From Janibacter sp. CX7 (GTDB lineage: Bacteria; Actinomycetota; Actinomycetes; Actinomycetales; Dermatophilaceae): 64,000 nucleotides of DNA. Both the position numbers and the translations under genes were made by a program. Numbering within the stretch: position 1 is the stretch's first letter; each line of letters starts with the position of its first letter. The DNA lies in assembly GCF_024362365.1 (NCBI RefSeq), contig NZ_CP101464.1, positions 2,914,001-2,978,000 on the forward strand. Direction: 5' to 3'. This document shows positions 54,590-57,086 of the stretch, piece by piece. Under the pieces are notes generated by a model. It was given only the letters and a program-made list of their open reading frames with translations. It had not been told where the DNA came from and did no database searches.

Positions 54590-55483
54590 TCAGCCCGGGG
54601 TCGTCACGTCGAAGAGCGCCTGCACCTTGGGCGCCCCTCCGCAGGTGAGCTGGTGGGGCGCGCTCATCGTGCGCACGACATGACGAAGGGAGGACCGCCC
54701 ACCGTGGTCGAGGTGGACCAGCCAGGCGTCCTCGCCGGCGGCCTCGAGGCGCGGCGGTGCGAGGTCGGGCAGGCGCACGGAGGGGTCGGTGCGCAGCAGG
54801 TCGTGGGCCGCGGCCTGCGCCGCCGGGTGCCAGGAGCAGCGGCCACGCCAGCGGTCGAGGTCGACCCGACCGTCGAGGTGGTCGAGGACGACCCGGGGCG
54901 CGGTGTCGCCGGTGAGCCGGCCGTACATCGACCCCTCAGGGAGGATCACGACGTTGCCGGCGAAGCGGTCGCCGCCGAGGTGGGTCGTCTCCCAGACGGC
55001 ACCGGGCAGGGCGTCGTCGAGGACCGCGGCGACGACCCGCCCCTCGACCGCGCAGCAGACGTCCTTGCGCCCGTGGGCGCACACGAGGAAGAGCGGTTCG
55101 CTCGTCGGGTCGGGCAGGTCGTCGAAGCGCCCCGCGAGCGCGACGAGGTCCTCGGGCCGCTCCCAGCGGGCGCGGCCGACGAGCCCGCGCCACACGTCGA
55201 CGAGGAAGACCTGCTGCAGCCCCTCGGCATCGACCTGGTCGCCCTCGAGCCGGCCGTGCCGGCGGATGAGCTGGAGCCGGGCACCGAAGCGCCCCAGGGC
55301 CGCGTCGAGGTCCGCGCGGACGTCGGCGATGTCGGGCGCCGCGATCGGCTTGGCCGGCCACGGGCCGGGGTGACCGACGAGCATCCAGTAGCGCGCGGGC
55401 ACGGCGGTGCCGACCGGCACGTCGCCGCGCTCGAGGGCAGCGAGCGAGCACCGGGTGGGCCTCGCGGAGGGGGTCGTGCTCAC
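54590..55483 (-). CDS. sucrase/ferredoxin-like [2Fe-2S] thioredoxin-fold protein
   Basis: A 297-residue protein of the sucrase/ferredoxin-like family. LFLVCAHGRKDVCCAVEG (Cys135, Cys143, Cys144) is the cluster-binding motif, followed by LGGDRFAGNVVILPEG, another conserved block. WHPAAQAAAHDLLRTDP forms the C-terminal helical part. These proteins resemble thioredoxin-like [2Fe-2S] ferredoxins; the name sucrase is historical. It follows the JmjC gene after 10 bases but also has its own leaderless-type box. A redox role with the oxygenase is possible but unproven. Confidence 0.8.
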   Translation of the reverse strand: MSTTPSARPTRCSLAALERGDVPVGTAVPARYWMLVGHPGPWPAKPIAAPDIADVRADLDAALGRFGARLQLIRRHGRLEGDQVDAEGLQQVFLVDVWRGLVGRARWERPEDLVALAGRFDDLPDPTSEPLFLVCAHGRKDVCCAVEGRVVAAVLDDALPGAVWETTHLGGDRFAGNVVILPEGSMYGRLTGDTAPRVVLDHLDGRVDLDRWRGRCSWHPAAQAAAHDLLRTDPSVRLPDLAPPRLEAAGEDAWLVHLDHGGRSSLRHVVRTMSAPHQLTCGGAPKVQALFDVTTPG

Positions 55484-55490
55484 GCTCGCG

Positions 55491-55496
55491 ACCCTA
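55491..55496 (-). promoter_or_regulatory. -10 box of a probable leaderless promoter (sucrase/ferredoxin-like gene)
   Basis: TAGGGT on the minus strand lies 7 bases before the GTG at 55483. It overlaps the stop codon region of the JmjC gene (stop at 55494-55496), so the last gene of the cassette can be expressed alone. Confidence 0.5.
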
Positions 55497-56729
55497 CGCG
55501 GGGCGCTCGGCGGCGGGCACCGCCACCCCGGCGACGACGAGCCGCCGGGCGAGGTCGGGGTCGAGCACGGCGGGCACCGCGCCGGCGAGCCAGGCCGTCA
55601 CCGCCGCCGCGTCGTCGTCGGTGAGGGGCAGCCGCCCGGCCCGGCTGACGAGGACCGCGCCCTCGGCGCCGGTCTCGAGCGAAGCCTGCAGGTGGGCGCG
55701 GGGCGCGATGGGGAGGTCGTCGAGCCCGTCGGCGAGGGCCTCGACGGTCCCGACCGGGCTCACCGGCCCCGGCCGCTGGGCCGCGCGCTGGCGGGCGGCG
55801 AGCCGTGCGGCGACGGCGCTCGCGTCGACGTCGGCGACGGCCTGCAGCAGCGCCTCGCGGACGGCGGCGAGGTCGTCGGCGATGGCCTCGGGGTCGGCGA
55901 CGTCCACCCCGGGGCGAAGGGAGGTGCGCTGCGACTCCTGCGCAGCCAGCCCCCTTCGCGCGGCGTCGAAAACGGCCTCGGCGAGGTGTCCGCGGTGCCA
56001 CACGTGGATGCCGACGGTCAGGTGCGTGCTCACGCCGCCGAGGGCGGTCGCCGAGTGCAGCCAGCCACGGGGCACGTAGAGCACGTCGCCGGGCCGAAGC
56101 GTGACCTCGAGGTGCGGCTCGCCGGTGGCCGCCTGCTCGACGGCCGGGCGCCGGTCCTGCCACGGCTGGTCACGCAGCGGGTGCGGCTGGACGGGGGCGT
56201 GCAGGCGCCAGCGCTTCTCCCCCGCGGTCTGCAGGACGAAGACGTCGTGCACGTCGTAGTGGGCGGCGAAGCCGCGGCTGCTCGGCGGGGTGACATAGGC
56301 ATTGACCTGCACGGGGTGGCCGAGGTCGGCGGCGAGGTCCTGGGCGAGCTCGAGCACCGGCGGGTGGGTGCGGTGCAGGCCCTGCAGGACGAGGGTGTGC
56401 CCCTCGGCGAAGAGGCGCAGCAGCGCGGTGTCGTCGAGCTGGTCGGTCACGCCCGCGCCGACGCCACCGCCGCGGGTGAAGTCGGCGTCAGCGAGCGTGT
56501 GCCCGTCACGGGCCACGCGCAGGAAGGGAGTGCGCAGGCCACGACGCGAGAGCAGGTCGTCGACGTCACGGGTCGTCAGCAGGTCGTCGAAGGGGGTCGG
56601 CAGCGCCGCCGCGGTCACGTGCCGGGGCTCTCGACCCCAGGAGCGCTCGAGCTCCTCGGGGCCGAGGTCGGTGACGCGGGCGAGGCCGGTGCACCGCGCG
56701 GGTGCACCGGCCTCGTGGGCGTCGGTCAC
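55494..56729 (-). CDS. JmjC/cupin_4-type 2-oxoglutarate oxygenase
   Basis: A 411-residue oxygenase of the RoxA/YcfD-like JmjC group. GFAAHYDVHDVFVLQTAGEKRW contains the HxD iron pair (His157, Asp159) and the 2-oxoglutarate Lys. LRPGDVLYVPRGWLHSATALGG contains the distal His225. The C-terminal 170 residues are helical with a winged-helix-like end. Characterised relatives hydroxylate residues in proteins, such as Arg of ribosomal protein L16. GTG at 56729 follows directly on the stop of the repeat peptide gene, so the two are coupled, and the peptide is a candidate substrate. Confidence 0.88.
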   Translation of the reverse strand: MTDAHEAGAPARCTGLARVTDLGPEELERSWGREPRHVTAAALPTPFDDLLTTRDVDDLLSRRGLRTPFLRVARDGHTLADADFTRGGGVGAGVTDQLDDTALLRLFAEGHTLVLQGLHRTHPPVLELAQDLAADLGHPVQVNAYVTPPSSRGFAAHYDVHDVFVLQTAGEKRWRLHAPVQPHPLRDQPWQDRRPAVEQAATGEPHLEVTLRPGDVLYVPRGWLHSATALGGVSTHLTVGIHVWHRGHLAEAVFDAARRGLAAQESQRTSLRPGVDVADPEAIADDLAAVREALLQAVADVDASAVAARLAARQRAAQRPGPVSPVGTVEALADGLDDLPIAPRAHLQASLETGAEGAVLVSRAGRLPLTDDDAAAVTAWLAGAVPAVLDPDLARRLVVAGVAVPAAERPA

Positions 56730-56960
56730 TCAGGCTCCGCCGTCGGCGCCACCGTCACCGGCAGCGCCGTCGCCAGCGGCTCCGTCCGCGCCACCGTCAC
56801 CAGCGGCTCCGTCCGCGCCACCGTCACCAGCGGCTCCGTCCGCGCCACCGTCACCAGCGGCGCCGTCCGCACCGCCGTCACCGGCGGTCGGGGCCTCGAC
56901 GGGCACGCCGCCGATGGCCTCCTCGGGCAGGTCAGGGGTCTCGTTCGGAGGCTGCGTCAT
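56730..56960 (-). CDS. short Gly/Asp/Ala repeat peptide, candidate substrate of the JmjC enzyme
   Basis: A 76-residue protein. Residues 1-26 (TPDLPEEAIGGVPVEAPTAG at the end) look like a leader. Residues 27-62 are four perfect GDGGADGAA repeats, followed by GDGAA and a final GDGGADGGA. There is no signal peptide and no Cys or Lys after the start. AAGGAG at 56968-56973 is an ideal ribosome-binding site 7 bases before the ATG, unusual among the many leaderless genes here. Its stop touches the JmjC start. A modified peptide precursor is inferred; an unmodified low-complexity protein is the alternative. Confidence 0.65.
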   Translation of the reverse strand: MTQPPNETPDLPEEAIGGVPVEAPTAGDGGADGAAGDGGADGAAGDGGADGAAGDGGADGAAGDGAAGDGGADGGA

Positions 56961-57086
56961 GGTGCTACTCCTTCACAGTCGAGAGGAGGGACGGCATCGT
57001 CCCCGGGCTCCCTGTCTATCGGAGAGCGCCCCGCAAGGGAAGGGGGCGAGTCGGTTGAACATGAAACAGGTTGAGGCACAACGGGT

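Follow-up and report, generated by a model that had tools for sequence, protein, structure and literature searches.

The locus described here lies on contig NZ_CP101464.1 of Janibacter sp. CX7, within a stretch of 64,000 nucleotides (positions 2,914,001 to 2,978,000) that was analysed as a whole and is called the window below. The minus strand of the window carries, in this order, the genes of a 76-residue precursor-like peptide (an open reading frame (ORF) at 56730..56960, with its ATG at 56960), a 411-residue JmjC Fe(II)/2-oxoglutarate oxygenase of NO66/MINA-like type (55494..56729) and a 297-residue Suc_Fer-like protein of the thioredoxin-like [2Fe-2S] ferredoxin family (54590..55483). An AAGGAG ribosome-binding site can be read from the sequence ahead of the peptide gene (56968..56973, minus strand). 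The peptide opens with a leader-like part of 26 residues, MTQPPNETPDLPEEAIGGVPVEAPTA (residues 1-26, 56883..56960), which is similar in Janibacter relatives. Four exact GDGGADGAA units and then a partly degenerate tail, GDGAAGDGGADGGA, make up its Asp/Gly/Ala repeat region (residues 27-76, 56733..56882; tandem repeat of period 27, 4.5 copies), which is presumably the modified part. The TGA stop of the peptide abuts the GTG start of the JmjC gene, both in one frame, and a gap of 10 bases separates the JmjC gene from the third gene. An earlier note, made from the sequence alone, had described the leader-like part and perfect repeats, the touching stop and start, the intact iron ligands of the enzyme and the Suc_Fer-like protein 10 bases on, and all of these were confirmed. 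Peptide and JmjC genes travel together across Actinomycetota, as the following comparisons support.

Co-occurrence of the peptide and the enzyme

Among 39 related genomes, all 16 from the genus have the enzyme, as do 4 of the remaining 23. At 13 of the 14 same-genus loci with upstream DNA, the leader-like part is similar and the repeat array after it differs, L016 being the exception (L003 and L015 are cut short upstream and fall outside the 14). In 13 of 13 aligned Janibacter upstream regions, AAGGAG stands directly 5' of the peptide start codon.

The comparison was widened to 80 named loci, the best-scoring of 531. Of the 76 named relatives with at least 600 bases upstream, 75 have an ORF that is rich in Asp and small residues, carries a ribosome site and ends near the enzyme start; the 76th, L064 of Kocuria rosea, has such an ORF that failed the filter. 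None of 1485 control ORFs from the same loci (30-300 residues, with a ribosome site) passed the peptide test, whose composition criterion was devised after the first peptides had been seen. At class and phylum level, 204 distinct JmjC genes were retained once duplicates (the same record both named and under a genome handle) had been removed by sequence and L197, with no single open frame over its match, had been excluded. Seven of these have fewer than 400 bases upstream and were set aside, leaving 197 that could be assessed. An Asp-rich peptide lies beside 177 of the 197, of which 168 were detected by script and nine by eye (L019, L064, L145, L155, L157, L173, L177, L179 and L207, which failed the ribosome-site or composition test of the script). 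Five more belong to a side clade with another peptide ('SSDFI', assigned by eye), and for 15 no peptide was recognised. The pairing follows relatedness: it holds for 172 of 178 genes whose products are at least 40% identical to a row of our alignment of enzymes (A1), and for 5 of 19 among the rest.

A reciprocal search gave the same picture. A query made of the repeat alone matched 30 of 394 class genomes, all 30 of them among the 123 that have a JmjC relative, and every listed match lay just upstream of such a relative on the same strand. The probability of this overlap by random draw is 4e-17, uncorrected for kinship. Of 149 family genomes, 94 have the enzyme, and the 15 in which the repeat was matched all belong to these 94; in 16 of the 17 matches the repeat is next to the enzyme. 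This search missed the Janibacter genomes G010, G011 and G012, all of which bear the peptide. The odd match is a DGGADGG run in a 305-residue acidic protein of G864 (L268 1429-2346, minus strand), a genome in which the usual trio is also present (L269). A short precursor gene beside a modifying enzyme over many lineages is the usual mark of a ribosomally synthesized and post-translationally modified peptide (RiPP), and both the pairing and the reciprocal result agree with it. The recurrence of the peptides beside the enzyme throughout the phylum argues that the pairing is not due to chance.

Features of the peptide

In Janibacter, the leader-like part consists of PD followed by an acidic stretch and IGG, and it stays similar among relatives while the repeats vary. 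J. indicus (G006), whose enzyme (P0021) is the closest named relative at 96% identity, has 10 exact units where the window has four, and the commonest units of the two differ at synonymous positions only. The array thus appears, from sequence, to be homogenised within each strain with the protein unit kept. Over 117 arrays, 2457 of 3985 differences between successive units fall at third codon positions; this count serves as support only, because setting the repeat period from protein similarity biases it towards third positions, and the comparison of the window with J. indicus is cleaner.

The 168 distinct peptides have a median length of 88 residues (range 49 to 207, some starts being uncertain) and are rich in Gly (31.6%), Asp (19.5%) and Ala (18.1%), with Lys, Arg, Trp, Tyr, Phe and Cys scarce or absent. 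Their units are specific to clades: GDGGADGAA in Janibacter, EGPADGGAAGTPGVHDGGADGGA in Streptomyces, DGGA runs in Geodermatophilus and Kineosporia, and DGDATDGTDGDA or DADASDADA in more distant classes. HDGG or GVHDGG is present in many peptides, and the element common to all repeat types is an Asp flanked by small residues. Distant peptides often open with a stretch such as LSDEDIETV or MALDDDDMTTS, openings of a type that resembles RiPP leaders. In an AlphaFold model of peptide and enzyme fused as a single chain, with the TGA of the peptide read as Trp, the repeat region is predicted to be disordered (predicted local distance difference test score, pLDDT, ~30-42). The window peptide has no Pfam or NCBIfam family above cut-off, and peptides of relatives (eight searched against NCBIfam and six against Pfam) gave matches only at E-values of 0.36 or above, far below cut-off. 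Among the names listed for relatives of the Streptomyces-type peptide are only 'hypothetical protein' and, once, 'BatC protein'.

Features of the JmjC enzyme and the Suc_Fer-like protein

The second gene product matches Pfam JmjC_2 with 98.4 bits (cut-off 22) and Cupin_8 with 48.2 bits. Its iron triad is at least 99% conserved over 178 aligned rows of peptide-paired enzymes, in which the window sequence is contained twice (H157 and D159 1.00, H225 0.99), as is K172 (1.00), which we take to be the lysine that binds 2-oxoglutarate, by analogy with FIH and NO66. The AlphaFold model aligns to NO66 over residues 8-408, and presumably comprises a JmjC barrel, a helical part and a C-terminal winged-helix-like part. 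The earlier note had named identity with the L16 arginine hydroxylase as counting against its proposal. Among solved structures, NO66 and MINA, which are histidyl hydroxylases, are closer to the enzyme than that hydroxylase (RoxA/YcfD), by sequence (E-value 2e-32 for NO66, 2e-14 to 6e-11 for YcfD/RoxA) and by structure. The family is large, with 6370 relatives at an E-value of 1e-10 or less among 7995 scored candidates, other clades included. In the sources, relatives are named NO66 demethylase/hydroxylase, L16 Arg81 hydroxylase or cupin.

The third gene product matches Suc_Fer with 65.7 bits (cut-off 34.9). C12, C135, H137, D141, C143, C144, H168 and C281 are invariant in 49 of 49 aligned sequences, which amounts to five Cys and two His, with C135 and C144 forming a CX8C spacing. 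Position 172, the second His of an HX3H motif, is Asp in 45 of the 49 and Cys in four, a substitution that may mean an unusual [2Fe-2S] ligation. A homolog lies downstream in 58 of the 77 named loci with enough downstream DNA. The 19 loci that lack it are mainly from Terrabacter, Terracoccus, Humibacillus and Intrasporangium, together with single loci of Nostocoides, Microlunatus, Umezawaea, Phycicoccus and Knoellia and two metagenome-assembled genomes (placed to family or order only). A homolog follows the enzyme in 145 of 173 distinct peptide-paired loci versus 6 of 27 others, some of the others being merely short of upstream DNA. These counts come from tblastn with a single query and are lower bounds. 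Suc_Fer genes also occur in 7 of the 8 searched family genomes without the enzyme, so the protein is not exclusive to the trio.

In the window, the trio is flanked by a divergent saccharopine-dehydrogenase-like gene upstream and a glyceraldehyde-3-phosphate dehydrogenase gene downstream, homologs of which are found in nine and four of the 80 named loci, respectively. Neighbours were clustered from called genes, raw-ORF clustering being swamped by shadow ORFs; the JmjC cluster covers 71 of the 80 loci and the Suc_Fer cluster 48 (58 by tblastn). A membrane-protein-like cluster lies ~3.7 kb upstream in nine. PADLOC gave no defence-system match for the JmjC enzyme or the Suc_Fer-like protein.

Loci that depart from the pattern

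G001 is the one genome of the genus in which the enzyme has intact upstream DNA and no adjacent peptide; its Suc_Fer gene is present. GDGGADGAA/GDGGADGHAG arrays occur instead in two neighbouring proteins ~130 kb from the enzyme (L234 1233-2075 and 2186-3202, minus strand), one with a PRC-barrel and one with a PRC-barrel and DUF2382 by domain matches. Since the units sit in distant PRC-barrel proteins, this genome points to the repeat itself as the important element, and to its use in trans as possible.

Several other upstream ORFs were seen. In L131 and L132, a related acidic ORF without repeats ends in EGRGPTIEPGA or DGQGPTVEPGA and is possibly a precursor of another type. Other repeats are found upstream of the enzyme in L199 (DGTDQGV.GG.YGPRDA-like) and L210 (PTEDDENLDAPGEHSQDTGDE), and nothing recognisable lies upstream in L018. 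A distant JmjC clade (L187, L188 and L190-L192) pairs with conserved peptides of ~37 residues like VEVEDLPEVTSRDVTAGGDTDGTDGSSDFI, with no Suc_Fer homolog detected, and is probably a separate RiPP-like family. In L189, with a divergent JmjC enzyme, a 45-residue Cys-containing ORF that ends in QFLICDPDPSDDCWIVCNPNYCY and is unlike the Asp repeats lies upstream.

Proposed function

These comparisons establish the genes and their order, show that the pairing is conserved, and give a predicted fold and the iron ligands of the enzyme. We consider it reasonably probable that the locus is a three-gene, RiPP-like operon in which the NO66-type JmjC enzyme hydroxylates the Asp repeats of the adjacent peptide. 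As a label, 'peptide-modifying cassette' is well supported, and Asp hydroxylation is a good inference. The small gene would encode a disordered precursor made of a short N-terminal recognition part, in Janibacter probably residues 1-26 acting as leader, and an Asp-rich repeat region. The enzyme would bind this precursor and, using Fe(II), O2 and 2-oxoglutarate, hydroxylate the repeated Asp residues one repeat after another, most likely at the beta carbon. Its conserved R66, R71, R120 and R344 would then be expected to touch the acidic substrate. The Suc_Fer-like protein, where present, would probably supply electrons that keep the iron reduced, or else act on the modified product. As a first guess, the product would be a polyvalent metal-binding peptide. 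Beta-hydroxyaspartate is a known iron ligand in siderophores, which favours such a product. No IdeR/DtxR-like box was found upstream of 178 peptides (against the consensus used, the best three sites have 7 mismatches in 19 positions and 168 have 9-11), so the metallophore idea is without regulatory support.

A number of observations weigh against Asp hydroxylation of the peptide. For 15 of the 197 JmjC genes no Asp-repeat peptide was recognised; 11 of these are more distant, and the enzymes of L016, L018, L131 and L132 are 47-60% identical to that of the window. The leader is not uniform phylum-wide: an ad hoc motif (a D/E-rich stretch followed by I/M, any residue and T/S) occurs in 65 of the 168 peptides, and Streptomyces peptides are without it. 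R71 and R120 of the enzyme are kept in 7 of 9 and 5 of 9 paralogs without Asp repeats. At the pLDDT of the peptide in the fused model, no docking or binding can be read, and the fold alone does not indicate a peptide, given that NO66 modifies a ribosomal protein. The reciprocal query is insensitive, having missed the window's own peptide (G000). Apart from JmjC and Suc_Fer, each neighbour cluster is confined to at most 11 of the 80 named loci, and among these neighbours, whose rarer clusters are unannotated as to function, neither a protease nor an exporter was identified as recurring regularly. That the peptide is the substrate, with Asp as target and beta as position, and what role the Suc_Fer-like protein has, we infer. 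The earlier note's proposal of a modified-peptide cassette is upheld in part. The note had asked for conserved pairing and leader with a varying repeat number: the pairing holds across the phylum, and in Janibacter the leader-like part stays similar as the repeat number varies; phylum-wide the leader is not uniform. JmjC homologs lacking the peptide, which it had named as counting against the proposal, are the minority. Also on its side is the Asp common to all repeat types.

Alternative explanations

The enzyme could act on the repeat peptide and yet not yield poly-hydroxyaspartate, the outcome being instead His hydroxylation in HDGG units, an oxidative cross-link or further oxidation. The nearest solved relatives being histidyl hydroxylases, and the HDGG and GVHDGG units of many peptides, speak for this. 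We nevertheless judge it unlikely, as neither the window peptide nor several distant ones (L141, L180 and L182) contain His, and the reactive residue that the repeat types share is Asp.

In second place, the peptide could be a partner and not a substrate, namely an acidic and disordered protein that binds metal and, as chaperone or scaffold, brings iron to the JmjC enzyme and the Suc_Fer-like protein. Its richness in Asp, the first place of its gene, which in Janibacter abuts the enzyme start, and the want of an identified regular protease or exporter nearby would all fit. Against this stand the fast turnover of repeat units and numbers and the genome (G001) in which two PRC-barrel proteins encoded at a distance from the enzyme carry the units. 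To our knowledge, other Fe/2-oxoglutarate enzymes do without a chaperone-like partner, and we regard this explanation as improbable.

Much weaker is the case for a ribosomal-protein hydroxylase of NO66/MINA/RoxA type with an unrelated peptide gene next to it. Fold and full-length similarity to NO66, MINA and YcfD, and the names that some sources give to relatives, would agree with it. The peptide pairing and the reciprocal search argue the opposite, and the gene has a patchy distribution (found in 123 of the 394 class genomes at an E-value of 1e-20 or less, paralogs included), unlike a gene for ribosome maintenance; we give this explanation very little weight. That GC-rich DNA of low complexity gives rise to the repeat ORF by accident, with no protein made, is hardly credible, for although GC-rich repeats do give long shadow ORFs in several frames, the ribosome-binding site is conserved in Janibacter, no control ORF passes the peptide test, and the commonest units of the window and J. 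indicus differ at synonymous sites only.

Returning to Asp hydroxylation of the repeats, we put forward tentatively, as a possibility that we would not yet back, that the trio defines a phylum-wide, undescribed class of ribosomally made poly-hydroxyaspartyl peptides with fast-evolving arrays, in which a polyvalent oxygen-ligand polymer would serve as metal buffer or metallophore, a variant [2Fe-2S] protein as redox partner and the repeats as a portable modification tag able to pass to other proteins, such as the two PRC-barrel proteins of G001. The trio offers a candidate substrate for a large set of JmjC proteins from actinobacteria now named 'cupin', 'NO66' or 'L16 hydroxylase'. If the peptide is indeed the substrate, these names are misleading, and low-complexity peptides are the targets of a bacterial branch of the NO66 lineage. 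The trio would also make a simple three-gene test bed for the iterative hydroxylation of side chains in a repeat polymer, and could lead to genetically encoded hydroxyaspartate polymers. The origin of the eukaryotic ribosomal oxygenases is touched as well, because the closest solved relatives are NO66 and MINA and not RoxA.

Comparison with known systems

No prior description of the trio was found in the open-licence literature, and it looks like a widespread, so far unnamed kind of modified bacterial peptide. Iyer et al. in 2010 reportedly treated the gene neighbourhoods of bacterial JmjC proteins, along with glycine-rich proteins, and part of the trio could already be mentioned there. Human NO66 and MINA53 are JmjC histidyl hydroxylases, whereas here the enzyme stands in a bacterial operon with a repeat peptide and no ribosomal substrate is indicated; in the NO66 alignment, R66 and R71 of our enzyme fall in a gap and R120 lies opposite Ala. 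The YcfD/RoxA L16 arginine hydroxylase differs further, being a much weaker sequence match to an enzyme that is paired with Asp-rich peptides. According to the available part of one source, which gives no details of the trio, certain eukaryotic JmjC PF08007 proteins have their closest bacterial homologs in RiPP-like contexts (PMC12710340).

The Suc_Fer-like protein belongs to the same family as Apd1 and Aim32. The accessible part of the source describes Aim32 as a thioredoxin-like [2Fe-2S] ferredoxin with a CX8CXnHX3H motif (PMC8482512); the CX8C spacing is shared and the second His of HX3H is replaced.

Hydroxylation of a RiPP precursor by a JmjC enzyme, or at Asp, has precedents in BipG and SmaO, as far as the available portions of the sources go. 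BipG, of the biphenomycin pathway, is of JmjC type and hydroxylates a side chain in a precursor peptide of ribosomal origin (PMC12707348), and BpmG is proposed as a JmjC peptide hydroxylase (PMC12257519). Compared by description only, BipG and, by proposal, BpmG act on ornithine in a short core, and their cluster is larger, encoding an arginase and a protease as well as a radical SAM enzyme. PbsQ, a cupin-like relative, gave no further modification in one co-expression, as that excerpt has it (PMC12257519). SmaO is described, at second hand, as an Asp beta-hydroxylase of a graspetide-type RiPP cluster (PMC13097080). Its partner is SmaX and its site of action the N-terminus of a linear graspetide precursor, an Asp-Gly repeat array goes unmentioned in the available text, and the likeness to our enzyme is one of proposed reaction. 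RiPP-like peptide hydroxylation is thus already known, and there is a chance that the product of the trio forms a new class.

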